From: an uncultured Gammaproteobacteria bacterium | GTDB lineage: Bacteria; Pseudomonadota; Gammaproteobacteria; JAADHQ01 | NCBI GenBank assembly: GCA_947258755.1 | Contig: CAMYJO010000015.1 | Coordinates: 1 to 57,879 of the forward strand | Reading direction: 5' to 3' | DNA: 57,879 nt | Shown here: piece after piece, positions 10,508 to 37,592 of the stretch | How the letters are laid out: each line of letters opens with the position of its first letter | Numbering within the stretch: position 1 is the stretch's first letter | Notes under the pieces: model-generated | Databases searched by the model: none | Told to the model about the DNA's origin: nothing | Seen by the model: the letters and a program-made list of their open reading frames with translations, nothing else | Translations under genes and position numbers: made by a program

Positions 10508-10509
10508 CA

Positions 10510-12800: not shown

Positions 12801-12835
12801 CAAATCATAAACTTGGTCTTCGAAGGAAAAAGGCA

Positions 12836-13054
12836 ATGACCTTGAAAAGAGTAAGTCCAATACTGCTCGCACTGGTGCTGATGTCTACTTCTGTGGCTCG
12901 AGCCATTGTGCTGGATTTCACCTATAGCACAGGCAATAATTCAACAACGCAAACATCCCCCGTGGCTTCATTGGAGTTGACCCAGGTCAATAGCGATGTT
13001 CGTTTTGATCTGACTAATTTTGCCACATCGGTTGTTGGCGGAACACCATTGTGA
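12836..13054 (+). pseudogene. Truncated PEP-CTERM-type secreted protein
   Basis: A 72-residue protein with a signal peptide MTLKRVSPILLALVLMSTSV, then a start typical of PEP-CTERM secreted proteins: an LDFTYSTG strand, PVASLELTQV, and VRFDLTNFATSV. In that protein class such a start is followed by 100-200 more residues and a PEP-transmembrane-Arg tail; here the frame stops after VVGGTPL. No PEP-CTERM tail is found in any frame before the next gene, so the 3' part seems deleted. The ATG at 12836 has GAAGGA upstream and is preferred over an upstream in-frame start at 12746. It lies directly before the exosortase operon, where a native substrate would be expected. It could still encode a short secreted peptide. 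Confidence 0.6.
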
Positions 13055-13150
13055 TTGGGATTTGAGCCAATTACTTAAAAAGATTTAATAATATATTGGA
13101 AATGTGGTAAAAATAGTTAATTATAACTTGCCGAAATATAAAAAAATGGA

Positions 13151-14356: not shown

Positions 14357-14421
14357 ATGGAATTTTTGAGGCAGTATACAATGTTTATTATATTGAGTCG
14401 GCCAGTATATGTGGCGAGAGT

Positions 14422-15333: not shown

Positions 15334-15463
15334 CTGGCGAAAGCCTTAACAAGTAAATTAATTTTCTGTCGTCTATGTCCAACAAGGTTTTTCAGGGTAT
15401 TGCGATACATGAATAAGATTTTTTCTGAATGAGCAACTGTTTTAGTGAAATAAATATTGGAAT

Positions 15464-16294: not shown

Positions 16295-16313
16295 TTTTAT
16301 CGGGGTAGAGTAA

Positions 16314-17444: not shown

Positions 17445-17489
17445 TTTTATTTCCTTTGTTTAAATAGAAGTGATCGTGTGTAAAAAATT

Positions 17490-18356: not shown

Positions 18357-18390
18357 TATAACAGTCTGATCAAACGCAGTTATATATTTC

Positions 18391-19269: not shown

Positions 19270-19272
19270 GCC

Positions 19273-19950
19273 ATGAGTAATAAACGCCAAATTTTTATAG
19301 CGTTGGCAATGGTGGGTATATCCTTGCTGGCCTATTTTATTACGCCGGATAAAAAAGTCTTTCATGAGCGGAATATGCTTGATCTGGAGTCAATGGTGCC
19401 AAAGACATTTGGTCTATGGAAGATTGATCCCACTGCTATTGCCATGATATCACCTGAGATTGATAAAAATAGACAGTTAGGCAATATTTATAATCAGGTT
19501 CTAATGAGAACCTATGTTAATGACAGTAATGAAAGGGTTATGTTTACTATTGCTTATGGAGGCGATCAGAGTGATAGCATGCAGCTGCATAGACCAGAAG
19601 TATGTTATGTCTTTCAAGGTTTTAAAATTACAAGGGAGTTTGAGGATGCGATCAAGATCGGGGGCGTTGACTTACAGATAAAACGTCTGATTGCTGTTAA
19701 TGGTCGCAGGAGTGAGCCCATAACGTATTGGATTAAAATCGGAGACAAGGTTGTAGCAGACAGGATAGGCAGGAAATTGGAGCAATTAAAATATGGTCTG
19801 ACTGGAAAGATACCAGATGGCATGTTATTGCGGGTATCCAATATCTCAAAAAATGAAGCCGATTCATTTAAGTTGCATGAGAAGTTTATCAATGATTTAT
19901 ACGATAAGTTGGGTGAAAAGTTGAGAACGCGAATAGTAGGTAGGAAGTAA
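19273..19950 (+). CDS. epsI: Exosortase-associated protein EpsI
   Basis: EpsI family protein (225 aa), consistently encoded with, or fused to, exosortases; its exact role is unknown. One N-terminal membrane segment (about 8-22) anchors a periplasmic domain. The family signature HRPEVCYVFQGF is present (about residues 106-117), as are FGLWKIDP and PITYWIKIGDKV. Three-base gap from the exosortase stop and one-base gap to the sulfotransferase start indicate tight coupling in one operon. Confidence 0.88.
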   Translation: MSNKRQIFIALAMVGISLLAYFITPDKKVFHERNMLDLESMVPKTFGLWKIDPTAIAMISPEIDKNRQLGNIYNQVLMRTYVNDSNERVMFTIAYGGDQSDSMQLHRPEVCYVFQGFKITREFEDAIKIGGVDLQIKRLIAVNGRRSEPITYWIKIGDKVVADRIGRKLEQLKYGLTGKIPDGMLLRVSNISKNEADSFKLHEKFINDLYDKLGEKLRTRIVGRK

Positions 19951-19951
19951 C

Positions 19952-20791
19952 ATGAAGCCAACATTTATAGGTATTGGTGCGCAAAAATGTGCGTCAACAT
20001 GGCTATACGATATATTACACGACCATCCGGAAGCCTGTCTGAGTAGTAAGAAAGAGCTCGATTATTTTTCTAATTTCTATGATTACGGATTCCAATGGTA
20101 TGAGGAAAATTTCACCTGTGATGGTAACAGGCCAGTAGTCGGGGAAGTCTCCCCCTCTTATTTTCATGGGCTGGCTGTCCCGGAGAGGGTCTATCAATAC
20201 AATCCGGATATGAAGCTGATACTGTTCTTAAGAAACCCGATTGAGAGACTTATATCTAACCATAAGCATGAGGTTAGAGTTGGTCATATTGCCGGTGGTG
20301 ATATTAGCATCGAGAACGGAATCGAAAATAATCCCTCGTATATAGAGCAGGGTTTATATTCTACTCACCTGGAGAGATGGTTGGAGTATTTCGGCAAAGA
20401 AAGCATATTGATTGTATTATATGACGACCTACTTTCAGATAATGAGGCAGTGGCCAAAAGGGTCTATCAATTTCTTGGCATAGATTATACTCATCGTTCA
20501 AAGTCATTAAAGGAGCGCTCAAACGTCAGTTATGTCAACCGCTGGCAGCTATTGGAGAAAGGCAAGAATTCCTTACGTGGGTTAATCCGTAAAGTTGGCC
20601 TTGGTAAGATATGGGATCTTATTGGCGGAACCGGATTGAAACAACTGTATCGAAAATATAATCGCAAGCCATCCGAAGCAGTCATACCTCCGATGAAGGA
20701 TTCAACAAAGCTAAAATTGCACAATGTTTTTAATCCTGAAATAAAGAGGCTGGAAAAGTATCTTGACCGCTCTTTATCAAGCTGGCTGTAA
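19952..20791 (+). CDS. PAPS-dependent sulfotransferase (heparan/Sulfotransfer_1-like)
   Basis: Cytoplasmic sulfotransferase of 279 aa, of the glycan sulfotransferase type. The 5'-phosphosulfate loop IGIGAQKCASTWLYDIL (residues 5-21) and the 3'-phosphate motif LILFLRNPIERLISNHKHE are both clear; KELDYFSNFYDYGFQWYEENF-type sequence follows the first motif, as in N-deacetylase/sulfotransferase and related proteins. The start lies one base after the epsI stop, so the gene is part of the exosortase operon. With cysC 6 kb away this points to a sulfated exopolysaccharide. Acceptor sugar unknown. Confidence 0.9.
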   Translation: MKPTFIGIGAQKCASTWLYDILHDHPEACLSSKKELDYFSNFYDYGFQWYEENFTCDGNRPVVGEVSPSYFHGLAVPERVYQYNPDMKLILFLRNPIERLISNHKHEVRVGHIAGGDISIENGIENNPSYIEQGLYSTHLERWLEYFGKESILIVLYDDLLSDNEAVAKRVYQFLGIDYTHRSKSLKERSNVSYVNRWQLLEKGKNSLRGLIRKVGLGKIWDLIGGTGLKQLYRKYNRKPSEAVIPPMKDSTKLKLHNVFNPEIKRLEKYLDRSLSSWL

Positions 20792-20888
20792 ATTGCTAAT
20801 GATTGCGAATTTTATAGTATATATGGCTGCCTTTATATTTTTGGCAAAGCCACTTATGCGTGCTTGAACGTGTTAGCAGTGACAATGC

Positions 20889-22421
20889 ATGAGTAATCCA
20901 TCTGGCAGATCAGAACACTATGGAATGAAGGCTTTCAAGAAAAGCTTTGCGCATTTTATATTGGGCAAGGGCTTTTCGGCAATCGCTACAATTTGCGTCT
21001 TGTTTATTATTATCCGTGAGTTGTCGATAGAGGAATTCGCAGTTTATTCTTCCTTGCATGCACTTGTTTTTATAATAGGAAAATTATCATCATTTGGCGT
21101 TAATCCCGTATTATTACGTTACTTGCCAGAATTAAAAACGCAAAATCAGAATAAGCCTATGTATAGATTATTGGTACTTGGCTTGTTGATTCGTGCTTTA
21201 TCTTATGCGTTATTCATTTTGATACTGATCCCTTTTATCGAAAACATTGCCGGCGTGTTTAAGCTTGATAACTGGTTATGGTTGGTGCCCTGGTATTTTA
21301 TTGTCGGTTTTTTTCGTGTTAATACAACATTTTTTTCCCAGGCCCTTGAAAGCTTGCTATGGCAACGCGATGCGCAATATAGTCTTGCTATTGCGGGCTT
21401 CATTAGACTGTTGGGGGTCATCGTAGTTCTTTATTGGTACGATCTGACGCTCTTTAATTTTGTTATAGTTGAATTAGTAGCAGAAATATCCAGTTATCTC
21501 CTGCAGGTGATGTTCTCCATCTCGCGTTGGCGTAAAGATGCTGACAGGCGTCGAGGGAATGAGAATTGTCTGATGGAAAATAGATCGCGTTATCTAAAAT
21601 TCGCTTACTGGTGTTATTTGCAGAATACTACATCGATTCTATATGGAAGTGCACCTAATCGTTTGTTCGCATCTTTTTTCCTGCCTATTGAATATATAGC
21701 AATGTTCGGTGTTATTGATCGATTAATTGATTTTGTCAGGCGTTATGAGCCTTTGCGTATGTTTCAGGGAATGGTCAGGCCGGTGTTTATGTCGCGCTAT
21801 AGTGAAGACGGTAATTTCGCACACCTGGCTTCCATGGCAAACTTTTTAATTAGATTCAACCTGATTTTCCTGTTACTTCCATTTCTCGTTTTATCAATTA
21901 TGGGGGATGTTTTTTTTGCGTGGGTAACGGATGGCAAGTATACGGATATCACGGCATTATTCCTGGGATTCTATTTAGTTGTGCTCGTGAATAGTATGAA
22001 CTATGTGTTTGATATGTTCGCCAAAGCAGTTGAGCGTAACAAGATTCTGCCATTTAGTAATCTTGTGCTGTCGCTGTCAATTGTGTCAGCTATTCCATTA
22101 ATACACCATATCGGGCTATGGTCTATTGCTATTGCAAATGTTCTTGGGCTTGTTGTTTCGTTGTTAATCGTATCAAAATACCTTAAAAAACAAGGCTTTA
22201 TTTTTACTTTTGAATGGCTGCTGACATTTAAAGTGATTGTCTATATGGTCCTTTCATTATTAACGGGGTATTTGCTTTTAATCAATGGAGTAAACGTGTT
22301 TGTCACTACAGTGATATCCTGTCTGCTCTATACCGGCCTGATTATTCTAAAGCCACCGGTTAATCTTTATGAAAGGAATTTATTAAAAAAATTGTTGTCC
22401 TCTAAAATACATAAGGTGTGA
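20889..22421 (+). CDS. Wzx-like oligosaccharide flippase
   Basis: Polytopic inner-membrane protein (510 aa) of the MOP/polysaccharide-transporter superfamily, with about 12 to 14 hydrophobic helices and a short positively charged loop (SRWRKDADRRRGNENC). It would flip undecaprenyl-linked repeat units to the periplasm for polymerisation. The N-terminal FILGKGFSAIATICVLFIII is typical of the family. A second start MKAFKK 36 bases in is possible. Placed between sulfotransferase and hydrolase in the eps operon, with the Wzy-like gene two genes on. Confidence 0.85.
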   Translation: MSNPSGRSEHYGMKAFKKSFAHFILGKGFSAIATICVLFIIIRELSIEEFAVYSSLHALVFIIGKLSSFGVNPVLLRYLPELKTQNQNKPMYRLLVLGLLIRALSYALFILILIPFIENIAGVFKLDNWLWLVPWYFIVGFFRVNTTFFSQALESLLWQRDAQYSLAIAGFIRLLGVIVVLYWYDLTLFNFVIVELVAEISSYLLQVMFSISRWRKDADRRRGNENCLMENRSRYLKFAYWCYLQNTTSILYGSAPNRLFASFFLPIEYIAMFGVIDRLIDFVRRYEPLRMFQGMVRPVFMSRYSEDGNFAHLASMANFLIRFNLIFLLLPFLVLSIMGDVFFAWVTDGKYTDITALFLGFYLVVLVNSMNYVFDMFAKAVERNKILPFSNLVLSLSIVSAIPLIHHIGLWSIAIANVLGLVVSLLIVSKYLKKQGFIFTFEWLLTFKVIVYMVLSLLTGYLLLINGVNVFVTTVISCLLYTGLIILKPPVNLYERNLLKKLLSSKIHKV

Positions 22422-22535
22422 CATGTACATTATGTGCTTACTATAATATTCTCTAGAGAAGAAAACTGTATTGTTTAGTAGTACCAGGTAGTCTGGGTAG
22501 TCTGTCGATTTTATAGGAGCATGGAGTAAATAAGT

Positions 22536-24116
22536 ATGGGTGTAAGTAATAAAACAAAGCCTGCATATGTACATACTGTCTTGTGGCTTATGCTAGGCAT
22601 CTTTTTCGTACTGAGCCCGGTAGTAAATGCGATGGCGGCCACCCCCGAACATCCTGCCAATGCAGTTGTAAAAATTTATGATAATGTTGTCGTGCGAAAC
22701 AAGCTGCCGGACTCTTTTTTCAGCTTTAATATTAATGTATTAAATTTTCAGCGAGATTTTATAAAAAATTCATCGCGGAATATCGATTCATCCGTAATTG
22801 AAAATCTGAATGCCTTTCCGCGGTCATTTTATCGGTACCCTGGAGGTCTGGTTGCAAATAGATTTAACTGGGAAGAGTCTATTGGCCCAGTTGCAGGCAG
22901 GGATGTTCAGAAAATGATCAAAGCCAGGCCGGGGGAGAAGATCGTATTTGGTGTGGATGAGTATCATGATTTTATAAAATCAGTCAATGGTAAAAGATGG
23001 TATGTTCTAAATTTACTTGGGTGGGACACCAGTATCATGGACAGAGAGCTATCTGCTGGTCAAATAACTGATAGTAATCATATGCTCGTAAAGTATCTTA
23101 AAAAATATAACAATAGTGTAGCAAAGCCACATTATTTTCAATTGGGTAATGAGCTGGATAGATCCCAATATCAATGGGATCACGAAAAATATATTAAAAG
23201 AGCTAAACAAACTATTGCGGCCATTCAGAAGGTAGATCCTGATGCTCGTTTTGTAGCATTTCTTCGCGATTTTACCTGGAAGTATAAGCGCGGCAAGGAA
23301 GGTGTCAGTCGATATGATGATTTTATACGTGATGTGTTGAATGGCTTACCGATGGTGAATGATTTCTCCTTGCACTTTTATTATGATGCCCGTGGCAGTG
23401 ACAAGAAGACACGCCAACTAACATGGCGTCTCAAGAATATCAAAAAAGCTATTGAGGTGGCAAAAAAAGCCAGGAAAGGTGCGCCTGTGAATGTGTGGAT
23501 TACAGAACATGCCAGGGGTATCGCACTGGAGCGTGGCAAGGTCATGAAGAGCCGTGAGTACACGAGTAACCTGGGTGGCGCTGTCAGTACTGGTGATTTT
23601 CTAATAGCCCTGGTGCAAATACCGGAAATTAAGGGCGCCTTCTGGCATGGTTTGAATGCCGGTCCATGGCAATTATTTGATGCCGGCACCGTCTATAATG
23701 ATTTACGCCCGAGACCCATTTATTGGGGATTGCGTGTACTGAAAAAGATGGATTTACCTATTGTGCTGTCTTCTGATACTAAAAGTGATAATAATAGTGG
23801 ATACATAGGCGGTTATGATATTCGCTCAGCAGCATTTACCAATAAGGAAAAGTCAAAGCTGGGTTTATGGGTTGTTAACCGTGCCCGTGTAAGCCAGAAT
23901 ATCGACATCGATTATAAGGCATGGAAAAATCAAGCTGTTGGTATCGATCATTACTATATTGCTGGAGCAGAAGGTGTAAGCCCGGATAAAAAACGCCTGG
24001 TACCAAATGTAAAAATTGAGCCGGAAACAACTTCTGGTAGATTCACCAGGTCAGGGATTTTAACATTCAAACTACCTCCAGCCTCTGTTTCAAGTATTAT
24101 TATTCATGAAAAGTAA
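22536..24116 (+). CDS. Secreted glycoside hydrolase-like protein, clan GH-A type
   Basis: Exported protein (526 aa; signal peptide to about AMA-ATPE, residue 34) with a (beta/alpha)8 glycoside-hydrolase pattern. SFYRYPGGLVANRFNWEESI (98-117) resembles the conserved N-terminal strand of GH51/GH79-type enzymes. FQLGNELDRS carries a likely acid/base E206, and VWITEHARG a likely nucleophile E324, the usual N-E and E pair of clan A. SLHFYYDARG lies between. The C-terminal part forms a beta domain. In this locus it may trim or release the exopolysaccharide; GH79 enzymes act on glucuronic-acid-containing, often sulfated, glycans, so that is one option. Family not settled. ATG at 22536 has GGAG nine bases upstream. 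Confidence 0.72.
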   Translation: MGVSNKTKPAYVHTVLWLMLGIFFVLSPVVNAMAATPEHPANAVVKIYDNVVVRNKLPDSFFSFNINVLNFQRDFIKNSSRNIDSSVIENLNAFPRSFYRYPGGLVANRFNWEESIGPVAGRDVQKMIKARPGEKIVFGVDEYHDFIKSVNGKRWYVLNLLGWDTSIMDRELSAGQITDSNHMLVKYLKKYNNSVAKPHYFQLGNELDRSQYQWDHEKYIKRAKQTIAAIQKVDPDARFVAFLRDFTWKYKRGKEGVSRYDDFIRDVLNGLPMVNDFSLHFYYDARGSDKKTRQLTWRLKNIKKAIEVAKKARKGAPVNVWITEHARGIALERGKVMKSREYTSNLGGAVSTGDFLIALVQIPEIKGAFWHGLNAGPWQLFDAGTVYNDLRPRPIYWGLRVLKKMDLPIVLSSDTKSDNNSGYIGGYDIRSAAFTNKEKSKLGLWVVNRARVSQNIDIDYKAWKNQAVGIDHYYIAGAEGVSPDKKRLVPNVKIEPETTSGRFTRSGILTFKLPPASVSSIIIHEK

Positions 24117-24213
24117 CGGTTTTTTTATGATTAAAGTATTATTGACCAGGTATAGAGTAGTTATAGCAAGGGTGTTTTCTCTTGGAAGACGTTAAAATAA
24201 TAGTGCCGAAATT

Positions 24214-25716
24214 ATGTATAGCCATATTCAAATTCAGAATACAGTAAAGTCTACATTTTTTTACATGTTGGCTTTAATGACCGCGGTTCTTGCCGGGTTA
24301 ATTGCCAGCACCGGTAATATTTTAATTGTATCGTTTTTCTTCTTGTTTATTACAGGCCTTATTCTTTTGGGTAAGCCCAATGTTCTCCTGTTTTTGGTAT
24401 TATTGGGAGGTCTAGTCGCGACCGGAGTTAGCCAGTTATATTTGCCGCAAATTCAAATTATACGTTGGGCCATTTCAGCAATCACCATCATTCTCGGCGG
24501 TATGGCAATTATTTTTCACTACATGCCAAATGGGGAAATGCAAAGGCGAAAAACTTCAGGTTTGTCCCGCTGGCTATTGATATTTTTTGTGCTATCCCTG
24601 TTTACCGCGTTTGTTAATTCTCAAGATATCGGGACTCTTGTTGTCGGCTTTAAAGGTTATTATCAGGTTTGGGGGTTGTTTATAGCACTAATGCTAATGC
24701 GATGGTCTCCTGACTTGATGCGATCTATCCCGAAGTTCATCATCGGCCTGGCATTCTTGCAGTTGCCATTCGCTATCCATCAATACTTGTTTATCGTTCC
24801 TAAGCGAGTAGGCTTGGGCCATGGAGTTATACCTGAGGATGTCATTGCAGGAACATTTGGTGCAAGTTTAACGGGCGGCGGTTCAAATGCAGCTTTGTCA
24901 GCGTTTTTAATAACAGCGCTGGCAATTATCATGTCCTATTGGAAGCGAGGCTTGATTTCAATATCTCAGGTAGGTATAGCCAGTTTGTTATTATTAATGC
25001 CTGTGATGGTTAATCTAAGTAAAGTGTCACTGGTTTATCTGCTGCTGATTGCTATAGTCATATTCAAAGATGACATTTCCAAGAGTCCGGGAAAATTTAT
25101 TGCCGGCAGCTTTTTCACTGTTGTGTTTATGGCAGCAATTATTTCGACTTATTCATTTATACAGTCAGATTCTAGAGGCGGGCAATCATTTCAGGAGTTT
25201 ATTAACAAATCTATTGAAAGCAATATTAGCGAGGGAGCCGGACATGGTGGCTACGATCTAAATAGATGGACTTCAATTACCTACTGGGCCAGGGAGCAGT
25301 ATCGTAGTGGTGATATTGCCCAGACCCTGATAGGGCACGGACTTGGCGAAGCACGCTCAGGCAGTGGTGGTGCCGGTTTTGCCGGTGCCAGCCTGGCACA
25401 GACTAAATATGCATATATGGGGATTGGTTTAACATCCATTAGTGCGCTTCTGTGGGAGGCAGGAATCTTGGGCTTGATACTAATACTGGGGGTATTTATA
25501 TCTGCTTACAGGACGGCTGCCAGGTTGGCCATCCATTTTAGTGACGACCCAAAAATGAGCGCCACTTTTCATGGTTTGCAGGCAGGGGTTGCAGTACTCT
25601 TGTTAAGTCTTTCTCATAAAAATTTGTTCGTTTTCGACCTGCCATACCAGACGTTTGTGATGTTGATTTTGGGTTATATTGCGTATTGGGATGTTCAGGC
25701 AAAATCTACCAAATAG
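24214..25716 (+). CDS. Wzy/O-antigen-ligase-like polymerase
   Basis: Polytopic inner-membrane protein (500 aa) with about 12 hydrophobic segments and one large periplasmic loop (about residues 325-400) that includes HGLGEARSGSGGAGFAGA. This matches the layout of O-antigen ligase/polymerase proteins, which polymerise the repeat unit with EpsF as co-polymerase. It is the last gene of the exopolysaccharide operon, after the hydrolase gene and before the tRNA. Sequence in this family is poorly conserved, so the call rests on topology and context. Confidence 0.75.
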   Translation: MYSHIQIQNTVKSTFFYMLALMTAVLAGLIASTGNILIVSFFFLFITGLILLGKPNVLLFLVLLGGLVATGVSQLYLPQIQIIRWAISAITIILGGMAIIFHYMPNGEMQRRKTSGLSRWLLIFFVLSLFTAFVNSQDIGTLVVGFKGYYQVWGLFIALMLMRWSPDLMRSIPKFIIGLAFLQLPFAIHQYLFIVPKRVGLGHGVIPEDVIAGTFGASLTGGGSNAALSAFLITALAIIMSYWKRGLISISQVGIASLLLLMPVMVNLSKVSLVYLLLIAIVIFKDDISKSPGKFIAGSFFTVVFMAAIISTYSFIQSDSRGGQSFQEFINKSIESNISEGAGHGGYDLNRWTSITYWAREQYRSGDIAQTLIGHGLGEARSGSGGAGFAGASLAQTKYAYMGIGLTSISALLWEAGILGLILILGVFISAYRTAARLAIHFSDDPKMSATFHGLQAGVAVLLLSLSHKNLFVFDLPYQTFVMLILGYIAYWDVQAKSTK

Positions 25717-25904
25717 CGCCTGTTGTGGTTTTGTGGGCTTATATGAACGATTAGGTATGCTGAAGGATGGTCTTTAGTCTGCATGTTTTAGGTGCTCACC
25801 TGGTTTTATGTTGGGACTGGAAATAGTTATTATTTTCGTGCCTATGTCAATAAATATGATGACTAACTACCTAAAATTATGTAAAAAATATATTCGCATA
25901 GCTC

Positions 25905-25933
25905 TTGACTCTTTTGTCTGATTCACGTAAATT
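25905..25933 (+). promoter_or_regulatory. Sigma-70 promoter of tRNA-Glu
   Basis: TTGACT at 25905-25910, a 17-base spacer, and TAAATT at 25928-25933. The mature tRNA starts at 25951, so transcription would begin about ten bases upstream, as usual for a lone tRNA gene. Confidence 0.65.
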
Positions 25934-25950
25934 TCCCGCTACTTTGATTT

Positions 25951-26026
<76 letters not shown>

Positions 26027-26034
26027 TAAATAAT

Positions 26035-26060
26035 AAAGCCCGCGTTTAGCGGGTTTTTTT
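26035..26060 (+). terminator. Rho-independent terminator after tRNA-Glu
   Basis: CCCGC-GTTTA-GCGGG stem-loop preceded by an A-run and followed by seven T residues, starting nine bases after the tRNA CCA end. Confidence 0.9.
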
Positions 26061-26072
26061 ATTTAGTCCCCT

Positions 26073-26098
26073 GGGGTTGAGAACCGCAGGGGGCGGCA
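26073..26098 (+). repeat. Degenerate copy of the tRNA-Glu 3' end
   Basis: GGGGTTGAGAACC then GCAGGGGGCGGCA resembles the tRNA T-arm and acceptor end (GGGGTTCGAAACCCC then TAGGGGACGCCA) with several changes. It starts 13 bases after the terminator. It may be a decayed tRNA fragment or an old integrase attachment site; chance G-rich similarity is possible. Confidence 0.35.
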
Positions 26099-26155
26099 GC
26101 TTGGAATTTCTCCAGCGCAGTTCATTCTGACTGGGCGAAACTTAATATGGCTCGC

Positions 26156-26836
26156 TCAGTCCTGATGATTGATTAAGCTTTCCTGGCGGATAATACCACG
26201 CTTCAGCAGGGCAAGAATCACCACATCAACACAGCTATCCAGGCTATCAGAGCCCGTATTGACTAAAATTTCCGGTTTTACCGGTTCTTCATAGGGAGAA
26301 GAGATGCCAGTAAAGTCCTTGATTTTGCCTTCTCGTGCCTTCTTGTATAGACCTTTAACATCACGCTGTTCACAGACTTCGATGTCGGCTTTGCAATAGA
26401 TTTCAATAAAATCACCATGCGGCATCATATTTCTGACCAATTCGCGGTCGGACTTGAATGGCGAGATAAAGGCCGTGAGCACTATGACACCAGCCTCAAG
26501 GAAAAGCTTGGATACATTTCCAACCCTTCTAATATTCTCTTTCCTGTCTTCATCCGAGAAGGTAAGGTCGCCACACAGGCCATGTCTGACATTGTCGCCG
26601 TCAAGCACGAAGGTGGAGCACCTATAGTGATGAAGCCTGTCCTCAACTGCGTGCGCTAGAGTGGACTTTCCGGAACCTGACAGCCCGGTAAACCAGAGTG
26701 TGACACTTTTATGTTTATTAATGTCTTCTCGGTTTTTACGTGTGATGGTGGCGCTATGCCACATAACATTGCTGCTTTTATCTTCACTGTCAATTTCTTT
26801 GTACGGACTGCTTTTGTCTTCTGACTTCGTGCTCAT
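26156..26836 (-). CDS. cysC: Adenylylsulfate (APS) kinase
   Basis: Cytoplasmic kinase (226 aa) that phosphorylates APS to PAPS. The P-loop GLSGSGKST (51-59), DGDNVRHGL, and the lid/substrate segments [11 protein letters not shown] and [17 protein letters not shown] are all present, so it should be active. About 24 residues precede the usual family start (MWHSATITR); they contain SEDKSS twice and may be a non-conserved tail or a start placed too early. No cysD/cysN is nearby, so ATP sulfurylase must come from elsewhere. Two sulfotransferase genes lie within 17 kb, so this copy probably supplies sulfation as well as or instead of cysteine synthesis. Confidence 0.95.
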
Positions 26837-28327: not shown

Positions 28328-30454
28328 TTAGATGGGTTTAAAATACAACATAAACACGACCCCGTCCGGAGTGTCCATGTTTCGTGCTTCTACCCGGCCT
28401 TGGTGAAATTCGATGATTAGCCTGACAATATACAGGCCAAGACCGAGGTGACTACTTCGGGTATTGGTCGGGCGTACAGATATCATCGAATCAAACAGAT
28501 TTTCCTGCATTTCTACAGGTAGAGGCGGGCCTTGGTTGAAGATGCTGAGCCTTATCCACTGATCGTCCGTTCTGTCCAGCCTGATTTCAATGGTGGTATC
28601 TGCCTGGGAAAAATCGATGGCATTTGTCACCAGTTTGTCCAGCATTTGCACGATCAGGTCGGGTGCCGCCAGTACCTTATGGTTTTGCTCAGAAATAGTT
28701 AATTTGAATGGGTGTTGTGGATAGGCTGTTTGATAGCCGGCAACACAGCTTTGCAGTAATGCGCTTAAATCGACTGTGACTTTGTCGGCCTGCTGAATGG
28801 CCTGTTCCAGTCGGGACGCTTCGCTAAGGCGATTGAGTATATTATTGAGCCGTTCCAGACCCTCCTTGGCGCGCAGCAGGTAGGTGTTATTGGTGCTCTC
28901 AGGCTGTACTTGTTCGAGATTGTCCAGCGAACTGCGCACAACCGATAGTGGCGTCCTGAGTTCATGAGAGAGTTTGCTGGCCATACTCTCCAGATAACGG
29001 TTATATTGATGCAGGCGTTGCAACAGGTCTGAGAAAGTTCGTGACAAATCACCAATCTCATCATTACTGTTGGAGGCATTGAACACATGTGCGACTTTGC
29101 CATCACTGGTAATGGCCTGTTCTGTCTGGTTGCGCAAATGACTGATACGTGAGGTCAGGCGGCCGGCAAACAGGACGATGAGCAAAGTACCGCCGAGAAA
29201 GACCGGAATGCTGAGATTTATCAGCTCCTCCATGGCTCGATTCTGCATTAAAAGTATACGCTGACTATTCTGCTCTAGCATAACAGCGCCGATAACGGCG
29301 TTATGTGACATAACCGGATGTGTGGCAGTCAATATGGTTGCATTCTGATCCGATGTTTCACGCCAACTTACTGTCGGTTTACCTGACAGCGCTGTTTCAA
29401 TCTCGCGACCATTTAGTTTGGAGACCCCGGACAATATGTCCTCAAAGCTGGCGGCAGGCTGTTGCAGGATTAAACGATAGAAGAGTGACAATAATTTTGT
29501 CGGTACACTACGTTGCGAAGCATCCGTATCTGTTACCGCCTGCAGGTTGCCTGAAAGGGCCAGGACGCGCTTATTTTTATCAATGACCCAGATGCGCGAA
29601 GAATCCATACCCAGTGTATTCAATAATTTTTCCAGACCGCTGGAGGGTACTTTGATCGTGGATAATGCCGATAAATGTTCTGTGCTGGCAGAACCGATTA
29701 TGCTGCCGCTATGTCCCGCTTGTGGATCATCGACGTCGTTGATTGCAAATGACAATTTACTACCAATCATCGAGATAGGTAGGCGAATTTCCAGCGTATA
29801 TCCCTCGGCGGTCTCCTGCCATGCGCCCTGGATACGGGTTTCTGCTTTTATCGGTGTGTTGTTGTCAGGGTCGTTAGGCATCAGCTGAGCGATGATGCGT
29901 CCAGGTGCTACGGTACTTAAATAATAGCGCTGAAATTTTCCTTGCGGCGTCAGTAATGCGATGCGTAAGTGGTCGCAATCATCGATACGGTTATTATTCG
30001 GATTGTGGTATGTGATTTGATTATCGTTGACCTTGAAGACGGCAAAAAGGTGCTGTTTGTAGCTACCGGTGGCCTGGCGGAAATGTAGCGAACCAGGTTT
30101 ATGATCACTGGATTTTTTTATAATATGTTGTTCACTATATTCCTGGAAAAGGTCCTGGCTGAAATGCCAGTCATCGGTATAGCCGTCCAGTTGGATCGGA
30201 TTGTCCAGCGGGCGTAAATATAAATGTTCACTTTCGTTGTTAATATTGATTGCTGCCTGGTTTGATAGCAGATCGACATGCTGTTGCAATACGATGGCGA
30301 GTGAGTGCGCGCGATTACCAAGGGCTTCTTCCATGGATGATTTCAGGAAGGTCTCCATGCCGCGCACATATTTATAACCAATCCAGGGGATCAACAGGAT
30401 AGTAATGGAAAACAGTAAGAGCTTGGTTTTCAGACTGAAGCGTGTTTTTATCAT
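28328..30454 (-). CDS. pdsS: Sortase-system sensor histidine kinase PdsS
   Basis: Membrane sensor kinase (708 aa) of the proteobacterial dedicated sortase system. An N-terminal helix lies near 11-28. A periplasmic region has a CBM9/DOMON-like beta domain (about 84-250: PIQLDGYTDDW, YTLEIRLPISMIG, FAINDVDD), then a Cache-like segment (about 284-400). A second helix (413-432), HAMP linker, and HisKA with phospho-acceptor H497 in KLSHELRTPLSV follow. HATPase motifs come last (NAIDF, GLGLYIV). The paired regulator lies 46 bases upstream. The signal is unknown; the CBM9-like fold suggests sugar or glycan sensing, which is inference. Confidence 0.9.
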   Translation of the reverse strand: MIKTRFSLKTKLLLFSITILLIPWIGYKYVRGMETFLKSSMEEALGNRAHSLAIVLQQHVDLLSNQAAININNESEHLYLRPLDNPIQLDGYTDDWHFSQDLFQEYSEQHIIKKSSDHKPGSLHFRQATGSYKQHLFAVFKVNDNQITYHNPNNNRIDDCDHLRIALLTPQGKFQRYYLSTVAPGRIIAQLMPNDPDNNTPIKAETRIQGAWQETAEGYTLEIRLPISMIGSKLSFAINDVDDPQAGHSGSIIGSASTEHLSALSTIKVPSSGLEKLLNTLGMDSSRIWVIDKNKRVLALSGNLQAVTDTDASQRSVPTKLLSLFYRLILQQPAASFEDILSGVSKLNGREIETALSGKPTVSWRETSDQNATILTATHPVMSHNAVIGAVMLEQNSQRILLMQNRAMEELINLSIPVFLGGTLLIVLFAGRLTSRISHLRNQTEQAITSDGKVAHVFNASNSNDEIGDLSRTFSDLLQRLHQYNRYLESMASKLSHELRTPLSVVRSSLDNLEQVQPESTNNTYLLRAKEGLERLNNILNRLSEASRLEQAIQQADKVTVDLSALLQSCVAGYQTAYPQHPFKLTISEQNHKVLAAPDLIVQMLDKLVTNAIDFSQADTTIEIRLDRTDDQWIRLSIFNQGPPLPVEMQENLFDSMISVRPTNTRSSHLGLGLYIVRLIIEFHQGRVEARNMDTPDGVVFMLYFKPI

Positions 30455-30500: not shown

Positions 30501-31196
30501 CTAGGCGTTCCATCGATAGCCCATGCCGTAAACGGTATCAATGGCATCAAAAGCGGTATCGATTCCTTCGAACTTTTTTCTGATGCGTTTAATATGTGAT
30601 GTTATTGTGCTGTCATCGACAAAAATATTGGCGTCCTGCATCAGTTGTTCGCGGTTCTTTACATGTCCAGGATGAAGTGCGAGCGCATGTACAATCCAGA
30701 ATTCCGTCAGCGTCAGATCAATGGCTTGTTGTTGCCAATGTGCGCACAGGCGATCCAGGTCAAGGCTTAAATCAGCACGGACCAATATATTGTCCTTTTC
30801 GTCCTGATCAGACTGCTGCACAGCCTCAAGTCTTCGAAACAAGGCAGAGATGCGCGCCATCAGTTGTGGCAGGCTGACATCTTTGGTCAGATAATCATCG
30901 GCGCCCAGACGTAGGCCTGCGACGGTATCAAAATCACTGTCACGCGCAGTCAGGAATATAATGGGCAAAGTCGCTGATTGCCCTCTTAAATCACGGCATA
31001 AGTCAAAGCCGCCATCGATCTCATCCTCAAGCCCAATATCAAGCAAGACCAGATCGGGTAAAGCCTGTTGAAAGGCCGCATGGGCATCACGGCCATTGGC
31101 ATAGGTGTTTACCTGGTAACCCTGTCGGCGCAAAGCGTCGGCATAGTTTTCTCGAATGCTGGGCTCGTCTTCTACAATGGCAATGGTTTTTGGCAT
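30501..31196 (-). CDS. pdsR: Sortase-system response regulator PdsR
   Basis: OmpR/PhoB-type response regulator (231 aa). The receiver domain has the acidic pair E10-D11-type pocket (VEDEPSIRENY), phospho-acceptor D53 in LVLLDIGLED, and FLTARDSD with the later K in LTKDV. The C-terminal winged helix has LTLTEFWIVHALALHPG and a DDSTITSHIKRIRKKF recognition helix. It is followed by pdsS in one operon and is divergent from pdsO, so it likely controls the shared intergenic region. Confidence 0.93.
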   Translation of the reverse strand: MPKTIAIVEDEPSIRENYADALRRQGYQVNTYANGRDAHAAFQQALPDLVLLDIGLEDEIDGGFDLCRDLRGQSATLPIIFLTARDSDFDTVAGLRLGADDYLTKDVSLPQLMARISALFRRLEAVQQSDQDEKDNILVRADLSLDLDRLCAHWQQQAIDLTLTEFWIVHALALHPGHVKNREQLMQDANIFVDDSTITSHIKRIRKKFEGIDTAFDAIDTVYGMGYRWNA

Positions 31197-31411: not shown

Positions 31412-32179
31412 ATGATCATATCAAATATTTCTAAAAAAACACTGACAGGTGCATTGATGCTTGCTTGTTTAACGTCACCCGTGAGTCATGCGAGTGACTG
31501 GGATGAGCTGCCGCCAGATGACAGTATGCCAAATTATGCGCAAGGTAATTGGGGGCTGGGTGTTGGCGCTACGGGTGGTGCCCTGGCTGGCGGACCGCCA
31601 GGACTGCTTATCGGTGCCATTGTTGGCAAGTTAGTGGGCCGACACCAGGGTATGCAAACCGCAATCGATGATAATGAGGTGCAGTTACAATCCCTGCGCT
31701 CCCAACTTGATGCCAGGCAAAAGATTATCCATTCATTGCAGCAACAAGATGAAAAAAAACAGTTACAGCTAGCTAGTTTGGGAAATGTAGCTATCAGTCA
31801 ACGACCTGACTTTGCACAATTGATGGCGCAGGGATTCACCTACACGGTCCATTTTAAAACCGGCAGTGACCGGATTGAAACGCATCTGATGGCCCAATGT
31901 CAGGCCCTTGGGCGCATGTTGAAGTCAATGCCTGGTCTCGAGGTCGAGCTCAAGGGTTATGCAGATGAGCGCGGTGATGAGCCTTATAACCAACTGCTCT
32001 CAGAAAAAAGACTGCAGGCTGTAAAGAGACTGTTGTTGGCAGAGGGCATAAATGAAAATGCGATTCACATGACAGCCAAAGGAGAGCAGGAATTATTACA
32101 GTTGGGTAAAGATCCGGACAGCCTGGCGTTCGATAGACGTGTAGTAATTACAATCACACAAAAGGATGCGCAATCATGA
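31412..32179 (+). CDS. pdsO: OmpA-family protein PdsO of the sortase system
   Basis: Exported envelope protein (255 aa). Signal peptide ends near SHA-SDWDE (about residue 27). A glycine-rich zipper-like hydrophobic segment (GLGVGATGGALAGG...) covers about 46-76, then a coiled-coil stretch (about 85-115), then an OmpA C-terminal peptidoglycan-binding domain (about 145-250: VHFKTGSDRIE, LKGYADERGDEPYNQLLSEKR). Such proteins accompany PdsS/PdsR systems; the role is unknown. Divergent from pdsR; its TGA overlaps the ATG of a small downstream ORF. Confidence 0.9.
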   Translation: MIISNISKKTLTGALMLACLTSPVSHASDWDELPPDDSMPNYAQGNWGLGVGATGGALAGGPPGLLIGAIVGKLVGRHQGMQTAIDDNEVQLQSLRSQLDARQKIIHSLQQQDEKKQLQLASLGNVAISQRPDFAQLMAQGFTYTVHFKTGSDRIETHLMAQCQALGRMLKSMPGLEVELKGYADERGDEPYNQLLSEKRLQAVKRLLLAEGINENAIHMTAKGEQELLQLGKDPDSLAFDRRVVITITQKDAQS

Positions 32180-32352
32180 AGTCCTTGCAGCCTTTATCAG
32201 AGGAGTTTTTATATCGCAGCCCCGAAGAAATATATATCAAGCTACAACTGCTCGCTAACAGTGAAGTCAAAGTATTTCATTGTAGTTGTGCACTGCTGCT
32301 GACCATCCAAGCTTATCGATATCAGGAGGCGAGTGATGAAAGACAGGACTGA
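32176..32352 (+). CDS. Possible 58-residue small protein in the sortase operon
   Basis: A frame starting ATG at 32176, overlapping the pdsO stop by ATGA, and ending TGA at 32352, inside the start of the sortase target. It begins MKSLQPLSEEFLYRSPEEIY and has a FHCSCALLLTIQAYRY stretch. AAAGGA lies about ten bases before the ATG. Overlaps on both sides suggest translational coupling, but no family is recognised and the gap might simply be a leader. Confidence 0.4.
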   Translation: MKSLQPLSEEFLYRSPEEIYIKLQLLANSEVKVFHCSCALLLTIQAYRYQEASDERQD

Positions 32353-34495
32353 AAATGAGTTTACCGTGGAGCTATTGTGTGGATTGCTAATGAGTATTCT
32401 TGCAGGCTTTATGATTTCTGCACTATTGGCTGTGATGGTGATGTTTTTGCCTGGCCTGGCGCGCACAGCCGAGGCTGCAGATATTGTGGATCGGGACATG
32501 CTCAGAAAAAATGAGGTGACCCGAGGTAGTGTGTTGTTGCAAACAGAGAGCAAGGGTCTGTATAGGATGGCGCCGCTGGTAAAAACGGACGTGCATATGC
32601 GTGTTAACGGTATGCTCGTGCGTACCCGTGTCGTGCAGCGATTCAAAAACCCGGGGCAGGAATGGCAGGAAGGTATATATGTGTTCCCACTGCCAGACAA
32701 GGCGGCGGTAGATCACCTGCGCATGCATATCGGCGATCGAGTCATTAATGGTGTGATTAAGCAACGCCAGGAAGCAAAAAAGATTTATCACCGTGCCAAA
32801 CAGGCAGGGCAGAAGGCTTCTTTGATAGAACAGGAGCGCGCTAATATCTTTACCACCTCAATCGCTAATATTGGTCCTGGAGAAACGGTATCGATAGAAA
32901 TTGAGTATCAACAGACCCTGAAGCTTGATAAGGAACATTTCCGCCTGCGCTTTCCGTTGGTGGTAGCACCCAGGTATATCCCGGGTACGGTGCCAAATGT
33001 TGAAGAACAGGTGCAGGGATTTAGTGGTTCTGGCTGGGCCAGGAACACCAACCAGGTGCTTGATGCCTCGCGTATTACGCCGCCAGTTATATCGCCGGGT
33101 CATGGCCCATTGAATCCAGTGACTTTGCGTGTAGACCTGAATGCGGGTTTTCAAATTGACAAGATACAGAGTAGTTATCACCGTATTAGTCAGGAAGTGC
33201 AGTCAGCCACGAGCATGACATTAACACTGGCAGACAAGCAAGTCGTTGCCGACCGTGATTTCGAACTGGTGTGGAAGCCGAAGAGTGGGCATGTTCCCAG
33301 GGCTGCATTATTCAGTGAGCGCAAAGGTCAGCATAATTATCTGATGTTGATGCTCATGCCGCCGGACAAGCAACAGATTGCACAGCAGGTACTGGATCGT
33401 GAAATCATTTATGTTATCGATACCTCCGGCTCTATGGGGGGCGCCTCGATCAGACAGGCAAGACGTGCATTGCAGTATGCTATTCGCGAGTTAAAACCGA
33501 CCGACTACTTCAATGTAATCCAGTTTAATTCCAAAACCAGTCGCTTGTATCAGCAGTCCGTACCCGCAGACCAGGTGCATATGGACGAGGCCCTGGATTA
33601 TGTGCGCTCATTACAGGCATCGGGTGGTACCGAAATGGCCAGTGCCTTGCACGCTGCCTTGGAGCTTGCGAGTGACAATGAAACAGGGCGCCTGCGTCAG
33701 GTGGTTTTTTTGACCGATGGCAGTATCGGCAATGAAGAGGCACTGTTTTCGATAATCAAAGACAAGCTGGGCGACAGTCGTTTATTCACAGTGGGCATAG
33801 GTTCTGCACCGAATAGCCACTTCATGCATAAAGCAGCGCAATTTGGACGCGGTACATATACCTATATCGGTAAAATTCAGGAGGTCGACGAAAAGATGTC
33901 GGCATTGTTCAGAAAAATTCAGATGCCGGTATTATCAGACCTGAAGGTGGAATGGCCCGAGCATACTGAAGTCGAGATGTGGCCGGCAAGATTACCGGAC
34001 CTGTACGCTGGTGAGCCAATTATTTTGAGTGCACGACTGTCTGCGCAACAGGGAACAGTAAGATTATCAGGTAAACGTTCGCAGCAACGCTGGCAGACCG
34101 ACGTAACGTTGGATACGGAGCAGCAGTCATCGGGTGTTGCGGTCTTGTGGGCGCGCGAGAAAATAGCCGATCTGATGGACCGACTACGTGATGGCAGCAG
34201 TGTTGATGTTATCAAAAAGGGGGTCACCGATCTTGCTCTTGAACATCATCTGGTCAGTCGCTATACCAGCCTGGTTGCCGTGGATGAGACGCCCGTACGT
34301 AGCATAAGTGAAAAGCTGGTCACCAAGGCCGTAAAGGTGAGCCTACCCGCAGGTTGGCAGCATAACAAGGTGTTTAGTAACCTGCCGCAGACCGCCGCTG
34401 GTTCCTATCGTGACTTGATATTAGGAATGTTGCTGACATTGCTCGGCTGTCTATTGAGTGTGTACTTCCACAGGAAAAATACTCATGCAGCCTAA
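32336..34495 (+). CDS. Sortase target protein with VIT and von Willebrand A domains
   Basis: Secreted, membrane-tethered protein (719 aa), the dedicated substrate of the following sortase. ATG at 32336 has AGGAGG seven bases upstream; an in-frame GTG three bases earlier is unlikely. N-terminal membrane/signal segment (about 14-45), VIT domain (about 75-200: FPLPDKAAVDHL, ANIFTTSIANIGPGE), and vWA domain with MIDAS motif DTSGSMGG (about 362-369) and FLTDGSIGNE. The C-terminus has sorting motif LPQTA (683-687), a hydrophobic helix, and a basic tail HRKNTHAA: a Gram-positive-style sorting signal. Matches the marine proteobacterial sortase target family. Confidence 0.92.
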   Translation: MKDRTENEFTVELLCGLLMSILAGFMISALLAVMVMFLPGLARTAEAADIVDRDMLRKNEVTRGSVLLQTESKGLYRMAPLVKTDVHMRVNGMLVRTRVVQRFKNPGQEWQEGIYVFPLPDKAAVDHLRMHIGDRVINGVIKQRQEAKKIYHRAKQAGQKASLIEQERANIFTTSIANIGPGETVSIEIEYQQTLKLDKEHFRLRFPLVVAPRYIPGTVPNVEEQVQGFSGSGWARNTNQVLDASRITPPVISPGHGPLNPVTLRVDLNAGFQIDKIQSSYHRISQEVQSATSMTLTLADKQVVADRDFELVWKPKSGHVPRAALFSERKGQHNYLMLMLMPPDKQQIAQQVLDREIIYVIDTSGSMGGASIRQARRALQYAIRELKPTDYFNVIQFNSKTSRLYQQSVPADQVHMDEALDYVRSLQASGGTEMASALHAALELASDNETGRLRQVVFLTDGSIGNEEALFSIIKDKLGDSRLFTVGIGSAPNSHFMHKAAQFGRGTYTYIGKIQEVDEKMSALFRKIQMPVLSDLKVEWPEHTEVEMWPARLPDLYAGEPIILSARLSAQQGTVRLSGKRSQQRWQTDVTLDTEQQSSGVAVLWAREKIADLMDRLRDGSSVDVIKKGVTDLALEHHLVSRYTSLVAVDETPVRSISEKLVTKAVKVSLPAGWQHNKVFSNLPQTAAGSYRDLILGMLLTLLGCLLSVYFHRKNTHAA

Positions 34496-35078
34496 GGCCA
34501 TGAAGTTGGCTGGCCTGGCTATCGCTTTATTGGGTATGGTCTGGTTGTCGCAAGGGATCTATATCCAGGCAAAGGCCTTACTGGCGCAGAAGTTATTGCA
34601 ATCGGCCTGGCAGCAAACCTTACAGGGTAAAAGCAAAGTAAAACCCTGGGCCTGGGCCGATACCTGGCCGGTGGCCAGGTTACGTGTTCCATCGAGGAAC
34701 ATTGACCTGATTATATTGGAAGGCGCCACAGGCCGTTCGCTGGCCTTTGCGCCGGGGCATATGCAGGGCACGCCGGCACCCGGTGACAGGGGCTTCTCGG
34801 TCATCAGTGCTCACCGCGACACGCACTTTGCATTTCTTCGCAACCTACAGTCCGGCGAGACCTTGCATCTGCAGTCCGGGAGTGGGGCAAGCCGTACTTA
34901 TCAGGTGGCTGCGATGCAGGTGGTCGATGCCGATAACGCATCGGTACCCATCAATGCAACCGATCGAGGACTGTTGTTGGTGACCTGTTATCCGTTTGAT
35001 CAGTTAGGTGCCGGTAGTCGGCAACGTTATCTCGTTTATGCAATCGAGAGCAAATCGCCAGAAGGGGAAGACGTATGA
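34485..35078 (+). CDS. Class GN-type sortase
   Basis: Membrane-anchored transpeptidase (197 aa) that would process the LPQTA target encoded just upstream. N-terminal helix about 8-24. The sortase triad is visible: H110 in SVISAHRDTHF, C168 in GLLLVTCYPF, and R181 in SRQRYLVY. The ATG at 34485 lies 11 bases inside the target gene, with AGGAAA eight bases before it; a longer in-frame start at 34458 would lie deeper inside. The single-substrate pairing is typical of this system. The nucleophile that accepts the cleaved target is unknown. Confidence 0.92.
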   Translation: MQPKAMKLAGLAIALLGMVWLSQGIYIQAKALLAQKLLQSAWQQTLQGKSKVKPWAWADTWPVARLRVPSRNIDLIILEGATGRSLAFAPGHMQGTPAPGDRGFSVISAHRDTHFAFLRNLQSGETLHLQSGSGASRTYQVAAMQVVDADNASVPINATDRGLLLVTCYPFDQLGAGSRQRYLVYAIESKSPEGEDV

Positions 35079-35270: not shown

Positions 35271-37592
35271 ATGGCAGGCAAGAAAAAAACACAGAGAAGA
35301 CGAAAAAAGCCGGTGCGTTCCAGGCGTAAGCAGCCGAGGAAAAAACGCAAAATCTGGCGCTATATCCTGTTGCCAGCAGTATTGGTCTTTATTGCCTACG
35401 CCATCTATCTCGATGTCAGCATTCGCGATCGCTTTGAAGGCAATCGTTGGGAGATCCCGGCGCGTGTCTATGCCAGCCCATTGGAGTTATATCCAGGCCT
35501 GGCCCTGCAAAAATCGGCCTTGCTGGCTGAGTTGAAAAGACTGAATTACCGTCGCGTCAACAAGCCGAACGAGCCGGGTACCTATAGAGTGCAGGGTGCT
35601 GCGGTGACGTTGATCAGTCGCGCCTTTGCTTTCTGGGATGGCGAAGAAGCATCCAGACAATTGCGTATTCAGTTTGACCAAAGTGGCGTGCAACGGATTG
35701 AACAATTAGTCACACGTGAGTCGATCAGCCTGGCACGGCTCGATCCCGCGCATATCGCCAGTATTTACCCGCGCCATAATGAGGACCGCATACTGGTGCA
35801 ATTAAAAGAGGTGCCGGTTTTAATGCAGCAGGCTCTGATTGCCGTAGAGGACCGAAAATTCAAGCGCCATCCTGGTATTGATGTTAGCGCCATTGCGCGC
35901 GCGCTCTACAGTAATATCAAAGCCGGTAAGACTGTGCAGGGCGGCAGTACCCTGACCCAGCAACTGGTGAAAAATTATTTCCTGACCTCTGAGCGTACGC
36001 TTAGCAGGAAAATCAATGAAGCCATGATGGCTGTGTTGTTGGAGCTGCATTATGACAAGGATGATATCCTTGAGTCCTATCTGAATGAAGTCTATCTGGG
36101 GCAGGATGGTCAGCGTTCCATTCATGGTTTTGCTCTTGCCAGTCAATTTTATTTTGGCCGTAAACTAAAGCACCTGAAAACGGAGCAAATTGCCTTGTTG
36201 GTCGGTATGGTCAAGGGGCCGTCCTACTTCGATCCAAGAAAGCATCCGAAACGGGCAACTCGCCGACGTAACGCTGTCCTCGATGTCATGCATGAACGCG
36301 GCTTGCTGGATAAAAATGAGCGAAATCGTTTTAAGAAATCTGGGTTAAATGTTAATTCGGCGCAGAAGGCAGCACTGACACGGTACCCGGCATTTCTTGA
36401 TCTGGTGAAAAGACAATTACGTCGTGATTATCGCGATGAAGACCTGTCGAGCGCAGGCCTGCGTATATTCACGACCCTCAGGCCTGATATCCAGCTGAAG
36501 ACAGAGCAGGCATTGTCGGGCAAGCTAAAGGCGCTCGAACGCGGCTATCGGCTGACTGCGGGGCGTTTGCAAGGTGCTGTGCTGGTCACGGATATCAATA
36601 GTGCAGAGGTGGTAGCAGTCGTTGGTGATCGTAAGCCACGGAGTTCGGGTTTCAATCGAGCACTGGATGCCGTGCGCCCGATCGGTTCACTGGTCAAACC
36701 CGCAGTTTATCTGGCGGCGCTAAAAACACAGCAGTATAGCTTGGCGTCGATGCTGAATGATGATTTCCTCAGGGTAGAGCAGGCTCATGAGGATAAGGAT
36801 TGGACGCCGAAGAATTACGATAAAGAGTACCATGGCCAGGTACCCTTGTTTCAAGCGCTGGCACACTCATACAATGTTGCTACGGTGCGCCTGGGCATGG
36901 ATGTCGGCTTATCTGCCGTCATCGACATGTTGTATGATCTGGGCGTACGTCGGCCAATCAATAAGTTTCCATCCATGCTATTGGGGACGCTGGCATTGTC
37001 ACCACTAGAAGTCGCGCAAATGTATCAGACCCTGGCGGCTTCCGGGTTTTATTCGCCGTTACGCAGTATTCGTGCGGTACTGGATATCAATGCCGAGCCA
37101 TTGAATCGTTACCCGTTGTCAGTTTCGCAGGTGGTTGATGCCGAAGACAGCCTGTTGATCAATTACGGCATGCATTTGGTGACGAAATTCGGTACCGCCA
37201 GTCAATTGTCCAGTTTATTACCACAAGGTCTCAATGCTGCCGGTAAGACCGGTACCACGGATAAATTGCGTGATAGTTGGTTTGCCGGTTATACGCAGGA
37301 TTACCTGTCGGTCGTCTGGCTTGGTCATGATGATGACAAGCCGACCCGGTTTACCGGCAGCAGTGGTGCCATGCAGGTGTGGGCCTCTTTATTTAATACG
37401 ATTGATGCCCAGCCATTGCAGTTGGAGTCAGACGATGCGATTGAAATGACATGGATCGATATACAAAGCGGCAACAGGACTGATGGTCACTGTCAAAATG
37501 CGATACAATTGCCCTTCAGGCGTGGCACAGCTCCGCAGCAACATAGCGGCTGTAGTCACAATATTATCGACTGGTTTAAGAAGGTATTCTGA
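35271..37592 (+). CDS. mrcB: Penicillin-binding protein 1B (class A)
   Basis: Bifunctional peptidoglycan synthase (773 aa), inner membrane. Very basic cytoplasmic N-terminus (1-30), one helix (about 31-48), UB2H-like region (RWEIPARVYASPLELYPG), glycosyltransferase domain with E193 in VEDRKFKRHPGID and GGSTLTQQLVKN, and transpeptidase with S473-x-x-K476 (RPIGSLVKPAVY), S533-Y-N, and K659-T-G-T. All catalytic motifs are intact. UB2H suggests activation by an LpoB-like lipoprotein. A TPR lipoprotein gene starts one base after its stop. Confidence 0.95.
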   Translation: MAGKKKTQRRRKKPVRSRRKQPRKKRKIWRYILLPAVLVFIAYAIYLDVSIRDRFEGNRWEIPARVYASPLELYPGLALQKSALLAELKRLNYRRVNKPNEPGTYRVQGAAVTLISRAFAFWDGEEASRQLRIQFDQSGVQRIEQLVTRESISLARLDPAHIASIYPRHNEDRILVQLKEVPVLMQQALIAVEDRKFKRHPGIDVSAIARALYSNIKAGKTVQGGSTLTQQLVKNYFLTSERTLSRKINEAMMAVLLELHYDKDDILESYLNEVYLGQDGQRSIHGFALASQFYFGRKLKHLKTEQIALLVGMVKGPSYFDPRKHPKRATRRRNAVLDVMHERGLLDKNERNRFKKSGLNVNSAQKAALTRYPAFLDLVKRQLRRDYRDEDLSSAGLRIFTTLRPDIQLKTEQALSGKLKALERGYRLTAGRLQGAVLVTDINSAEVVAVVGDRKPRSSGFNRALDAVRPIGSLVKPAVYLAALKTQQYSLASMLNDDFLRVEQAHEDKDWTPKNYDKEYHGQVPLFQALAHSYNVATVRLGMDVGLSAVIDMLYDLGVRRPINKFPSMLLGTLALSPLEVAQMYQTLAASGFYSPLRSIRAVLDINAEPLNRYPLSVSQVVDAEDSLLINYGMHLVTKFGTASQLSSLLPQGLNAAGKTGTTDKLRDSWFAGYTQDYLSVVWLGHDDDKPTRFTGSSGAMQVWASLFNTIDAQPLQLESDDAIEMTWIDIQSGNRTDGHCQNAIQLPFRRGTAPQQHSGCSHNIIDWFKKVF

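Follow-up and report, generated by a model that had tools for sequence, protein, structure and literature searches.

The closest described systems to the protein analyzed here are the proteobacterial dedicated sortase system histidine kinases of the TIGR03785 family (PdsS), the sensor kinases of the ChvG/ExoS and CreC types and, for one module of the protein, the CBM9 modules of xylanases, such as TmCBM9-2 (1i82) and CkCBM9.3 (7nwn). According to excerpts of PMC8280721, the sugar is clamped in CBM9 by two aromatic residues, Trp71 and Trp175 in TmCBM9-2 and Tyr89 and Trp191 in CBM9.3. A literature search, which covered few of the papers behind subscription, retrieved no paper describing the form or the signal of the PdsS sensor, and domain databases may already note its domain.

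The window, i.e., the whole stretch of DNA analyzed (57,879 nucleotides from an uncultured Gammaproteobacteria bacterium), contains on its minus strand (28328-30454) an open reading frame of 708 amino acids that corresponds to pdsS and encodes a sensor histidine kinase. The protein matched TIGR03785 over residues 8-702 with a score of 752.6 bits (cut-off 612.2) and was the only one in the source genome to score above this cut-off. Four neighboring genes also exceeded the cut-off of their own NCBIfam profile: pdsR (30501-31196, minus strand), encoding the response regulator (TIGR03787, 390.1 bits, cut-off 335.7); pdsO (31412-32179, plus strand), encoding an OmpA-like protein and divergently transcribed from pdsR with a spacing of 215 bp (TIGR03789, 156.2 bits, cut-off 152.2); the gene encoding the VIT/VWA sortase target (32333-34495, plus strand; TIGR03788, 819.5 bits, cut-off 551.65); and the gene encoding the class GN sortase (34458-35078, plus strand; TIGR03784, 223.9 bits, cut-off 158.25). 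When compared to the TIGR03785 family, the PdsS of the window is a full-length member with the same neighbors, and the gene itself shows no difference; it is a typical representative of this named family. The C-terminal end of the sortase target (34420-34495), in which LPQTA is followed by a hydrophobic stretch and basic residues, was by our own reading a sortase signal, and it gave a weak match to NF058670 (15.4 bits, cut-off 32). A gene encoding penicillin-binding protein 1B (35271-37592, TIGR02071) lies directly after the sortase gene, and a match to this protein was also found in 4 of 20 PdsS neighborhoods.

From its N-terminus, PdsS comprises a first membrane segment (residues ~4-31, 30362-30445), a short stretch, a CBM9/DOMON-like module (residues ~84-270, 29645-30205), a Cache/PDC-like membrane-proximal module (residues ~275-408, 29231-29632), a second membrane segment (residues ~408-437, 29144-29233), and then the HAMP (429-483), HisKA (489-551), and HATPase_c (598-705) domains (28340-29170), all encoded on the minus strand. 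The membrane segments were delimited by hydropathy windows, the CBM9-like module by profile searches, with boundaries placed by visual inspection of the alignment, and the last three domains by Pfam, HAMP being a weak match of 17.5 bits, under its cut-off of 25. Because the hydrophobic stretches at residues ~4-31 and 408-437 flank the CBM9-like module, it is predicted to lie outside the cytoplasmic membrane, in agreement with a preliminary description of this DNA in which the domain faced the periplasm. That description had set the domain at 29704-30205 (residues 84 to ~250); the start was retained, whereas the alignment extends the end to residue ~270 (29645).

The membrane-proximal module was assigned from matches to Cache_WalK and dCache_1. 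With the PdsS of the window, Cache_WalK scored 24.5 bits and did not reach the Cache threshold of 27; among the 68 aligned PdsS proteins, it matched 35 at E ≤ 1 (best 2e-7) and dCache_1 matched nine. A profile of this region searched against the PDB gave as its best match (E = 0.0056) an NHL-repeat protein, with no stretch passing alone, and this match was not counted. The CreC profile (NF008312) aligned to residues 365-702 of PdsS (162.4 bits, cut-off 356) and the ChvG profile (NF058527) to residues 349-701 (154.2 bits, cut-off 740). PdsS thus aligns with the ChvG/ExoS and CreC kinases over the kinase core and some of the membrane-proximal sensor, but the scores are far under the cut-offs, and PdsS carries its CBM9-like module ahead of the aligned part. 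In a divergent PdsS member (L063), the ChvG alignment begins at residue 237, which by our own reading is located just after the CBM9 region. As judged from these profiles, PdsS is related to ChvG and CreC and a member of neither, and we infer that it is a ChvG/CreC-type kinase in which a CBM9-like module precedes the Cache-like one.

A divergent PdsS-like protein of 734 amino acids (L113:124-2325, minus strand, genome G038) showed a CBM9_1 match of 20.4 bits, a weak HisKA match, and no HATPase_c match at E ≤ 0.01; its sensor half was nearer to PdsS than its kinase half. Relatives of PdsS were also sought with the single protein and, in viral contigs, with the alignment; both searches recovered only other kinases. 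Among the rejected candidates, L038 was nearest to ChvG and L039 to BarA, both under the cut-offs of those profiles, and L040 and L082 aligned with PdsS over the kinase parts only.

Taken alone, the window protein scored under the cut-off of the Pfam CBM9_1 profile (PF06452, 23.4 bits), either as the whole protein (15.9 bits, E = 0.012) or as the isolated domain (19.1 bits, E = 0.0013); in a CBM9_1 search of the source genome, PdsS was the only match at E ≤ 0.01 (18.8 bits, E = 0.0021). A single-sequence phmmer search of the PDB with the window protein yielded noise and nothing credible. At the level of the family, a profile of the domain built from 68 PdsS members and searched against PDB chain sequences retrieved two chains at E < 0.01, both of them CBM9 (7nwn, 1.9e-5, and 1i82, 2.5e-5); these matches covered positions 15-174 of the 202 positions of the profile, and the next PDB match had an E-value of 0.62. 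At a threshold of E ≤ 1, CBM9_1 was matched by 46 of the 68 members, with a best E-value of 6.9e-10, and not by the 22 others; any other family matched at most two of the 68 domains. When the PdsS domain was aligned by hhalign with 11 CBM9 sequences (nine loci and two PDB fragments, with L093 and weaker or short matches left out), the probability was 96.6% (E = 5.7e-10). Among the controls, 20 copies with shuffled columns reached 0.7% at most, the membrane-proximal region of PdsS 0.9%, and its kinase region 0.1%. When CBM9_1 was run against 369 genomes of the class, 16 of the 51 rows obtained were located within PdsS genes, 13 of them at 23.4 bits or more, one of which (G178) reaches this score only with its neighbors in frame added. 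A PdsS of the same genus (G184) passed the cut-off with 23.9 bits. The top score among PdsS proteins, 38.9 bits, was that of G198, a genome without detected sortase, whose PdsS (L043) combines CBM9_1, HisKA, and HATPase_c, each over its cut-off.

A comparison with other PdsS proteins, one of the checks proposed in the preliminary description, supported the domain assignment: the module was present in all 68 aligned PdsS, with Gly218 conserved in 68/68 and Trp96 and Glu222 in 67/68 each. Seventeen positions were conserved in at least 80% of the 68 sequences, and most of them belong, by our own reading, to the general CBM9 pattern; DG..DDW, V.D, D.(L/V), GY..E..P, and a D near the end are common to PdsS and the xylanase modules TmCBM9-2 and CkCBM9.3. 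Single-sequence AlphaFold2 models were of low confidence, both for residues 74-272 (pLDDT 43.4, pTM 0.41) and for residues 262-408 (pLDDT 44.0, pTM 0.29). With the low-confidence model of residues 74-272, Foldseek returned no match at E ≤ 0.001, and most VIA-align matches were antibody domains, with Z no higher than 6.4; no CBM9 chain was among the matches listed. These results have no bearing on the fold. At the level of sequence, the order of the modules, the kinase core, the adjacent response regulator, and the kinship with CBM9 are all evident, and we consider this kinship as established. The CBM9 label denotes here a kinship of fold and is not a proof of sugar binding.

The PdsS module differs from TmCBM9-2 and CkCBM9.3 in that it sits in a membrane kinase, not in an enzyme, and in that the aromatic clamp is not conserved. 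In the profile alignment to CBM9, the first clamp aromatic (Trp71 of TmCBM9-2, Tyr89 of CBM9.3) coincides with Asp158 of PdsS (29981-29983, minus strand) or its immediate neighbor, and the Asp158 column contains W, Y, or F in only 2 of 67 PdsS and Asp in 34. The second clamp aromatic would fall, by our own reading (the alignment output ends before it), in the stretch 247-262, in which no conserved aromatic residue was found across the family and none at all in the PdsS of the window. Any W, Y, or F was present at 155-160 in 15 of the 68 sequences, at 247-262 in 21, and in both stretches in three. Because the clamp aromatics are without conserved counterparts, the data do not support binding of sugar in the way known from CBM9, and in this respect the earlier proposal of a sugar or glycan signal was not upheld. 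Binding sites vary between CBM9 modules, and thus loss of the clamp is still compatible with a sugar ligand.

Aromatic residues were found elsewhere in the module, at the positions of Tyr149 (60/68) and Trp212 (57/68), and position 186 (29897-29899) is Trp in 31 of the 68 PdsS and Arg in 15, including the window protein. This last position aligns with an Arg of TmCBM9-2 located two residues after Gln96, a residue that contacts the sugar according to excerpts of PMC8280721. As far as conservation can tell, the positions of Tyr149, Trp212, and Trp186 might constitute another binding platform, and the Trp/Arg split at position 186 could mark ligand differences between clades. Heme binding, a role of other DOMON domains, was considered for PdsS, in which the position of His162 is His in 47/68 and that of Met229 is Met in 34/68, with no invariant pair.

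PdsS was found in at least 71 of the 369 genomes of the class (profile search, E ≤ 1e-80), a lower bound, as at most three candidates per genome were scored and G038, with its divergent L113 protein, is not in the count. Sixty-eight of the 71 proteins, the most distant sharing 27% identity with that of the window, were aligned; those omitted were the incomplete genes of G208 (L067) and G001 (L073), and the PdsS of G184. With a GN sortase threshold of E ≤ 1e-15, 41 genomes contained both PdsS and a GN sortase, 30 contained PdsS only, 14 the sortase only, and 284 neither. This co-occurrence is far above chance (p ~2e-23, not corrected for relatedness), and in 25 of the 41 genomes with both, the two genes lie on one contig at most 15 kb apart. 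The idea that PdsS is the sensor of the sortase system was partly supported, by its strong association with the GN sortase, but not to the extent that the sortase would be its only output, since no GN sortase was found in 30 of the 71 PdsS genomes. As the genomes are drafts, absence of the sortase may reflect an assembly gap. The sortase was likewise not found in 26 of the 62 PdsS genomes at least 90% complete (completeness figures being rounded), nor in 16 of the 32 genomes of such completeness with a PdsS over the TIGR03785 cut-off. PdsS is not strictly dedicated to sortase, and the CBM9-like module belongs to the PdsS family as such, many members of which occur without a detected sortase.

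PdsR adjoins PdsS in all 20 of the larger neighborhoods and in 39 of the 40 smaller ones. The neighborhood of PdsS was inspected for PdsO in 57 of the 71 PdsS genomes, some flanks ending at a contig edge: a PdsO-like OmpA-like gene was located at most 2.5 kb from PdsS in 12 of the 22 genomes without a detected sortase and in 10 of the 35 with one, and was not found within this distance in 35 of the 57. The PdsS-PdsR pair, often with PdsO, can thus occur without a detected sortase.

The reading that we favor, tentatively and with slightly less than even confidence, is that a clamp-less CBM9-like module recognizes a partner in the envelope and sets the kinase activity through the Cache-like and HAMP parts, with PdsR as the output. 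PdsS would be an inner-membrane kinase of the ChvG/CreC type whose outer part consists of a distal beta-sandwich of the CBM9/DOMON kind (~84-270) and, closer to the second membrane segment, a Cache/PDC-like module (~275-408). The CBM9-like module would recognize its partner, most likely a protein, by a face other than the CBM9 clamp; this recognition would change the Cache-like and HAMP parts and so adjust the kinase, and PdsR would then control the divergent pdsO and, where present, the sortase genes. PdsO would be the first candidate for both partner and target, the partner step being deduced from gene order. Control of such a kinase by a periplasmic protein is described for ExoR and ExoS in excerpts of PMC10659215. 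Since 35 of 57 genomes had no PdsO-like gene near PdsS, PdsO would not be a universal partner, unless it was missed or is encoded elsewhere. With its OmpA domain, PdsO may also sit at the wall or the outer membrane and not at the kinase, which argues against it as the partner. In a bolder version, to which we give rather little credit, PdsS-PdsR, often with PdsO, would be a self-standing envelope-sensing system joined by the sortase in part of its range, and the module would have traded its clamp for a new face reading either an OmpA-like protein or a glycan of the wall or outer membrane.

The module may instead be a glycan sensor working by another site, a possibility that we consider somewhat unlikely, in which an envelope glycan (a fragment of peptidoglycan, lipopolysaccharide, or another surface polymer) would be bound by non-clamp residues and report the state of the envelope. 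The CBM9 kinship found in the profile searches and the aromatic residues conserved elsewhere, at the Tyr149, Trp212, and Trp186 positions, are consistent with such a role; however, the family-wide conservation mostly reflects the general CBM9 pattern, and the window PdsS has Arg at position 186. Loss of the CBM9 clamp would also suit a spacer or stability module without ligand, which would distance the Cache-like sensor from the membrane or aid dimerization and leave the signal to be read by the Cache-like part, a type of sensor in its own right. CBM9.1, for which excerpts of PMC8280721 give no known binding role, is in line with this explanation, but the module was kept in the 68 aligned PdsS down to 27% identity, and we regard a ligand-free module as improbable. 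A chance resemblance to CBM9, with a different underlying fold, is barely credible: the window protein alone is under the CBM9_1 cut-off and the structure models are of low confidence (pLDDT 43-44), whereas independent profile searches with controls point to CBM9.

The preliminary description had also pointed to the nearby polysaccharide as a possible signal, and the corresponding explanation would be that the module binds this polymer and ties sortase activity to it. Such a cluster does exist ~2.6 kb from pdsS (9427-26836), with genes for two sulfotransferases, a glycosyltransferase, Poly_export, Wzz, an exosortase, DUF3485, and an APS kinase, a content that suggests the synthesis of a sulfated exopolysaccharide; a sulfatase gene (5320-8940) precedes it. 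However, the exosortase of the window was matched in none of the three further genomes of the genus (PdsS is present in two of them), and none of 20 PdsS neighborhoods (19-20 kb), queried with the genes of the window only, matched its polysaccharide genes. The APS kinase of the window was matched in one of these 20 neighborhoods, a congeneric one. Exosortases were detected in 29 of 71 PdsS genomes versus 87 of 298 others (p = 0.065), and their link with PdsS across the class is weak at best. Together with the non-conserved clamp, these results make binding of this polysaccharide very improbable, and the proximity of the cluster to pdsS looks incidental.

The assignment of the domain is thus correct and useful, and the inference of a sugar signal is weakened. 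The CBM9-like module that precedes the Cache-like one offers a defined fragment for expression and testing. More interesting as a by-product of this analysis is that PdsS is partly independent of the sortase, and the frequent occurrence of PdsS without a detected sortase calls for caution before assuming that its job is the control of sortase. In excerpts of a 2025 review (PMC12114352), pdsO, associated with pdsS in Shewanella algae, is tied to membrane integrity and beta-lactam resistance, and through this link the signal perceived by PdsS may be of medical interest.
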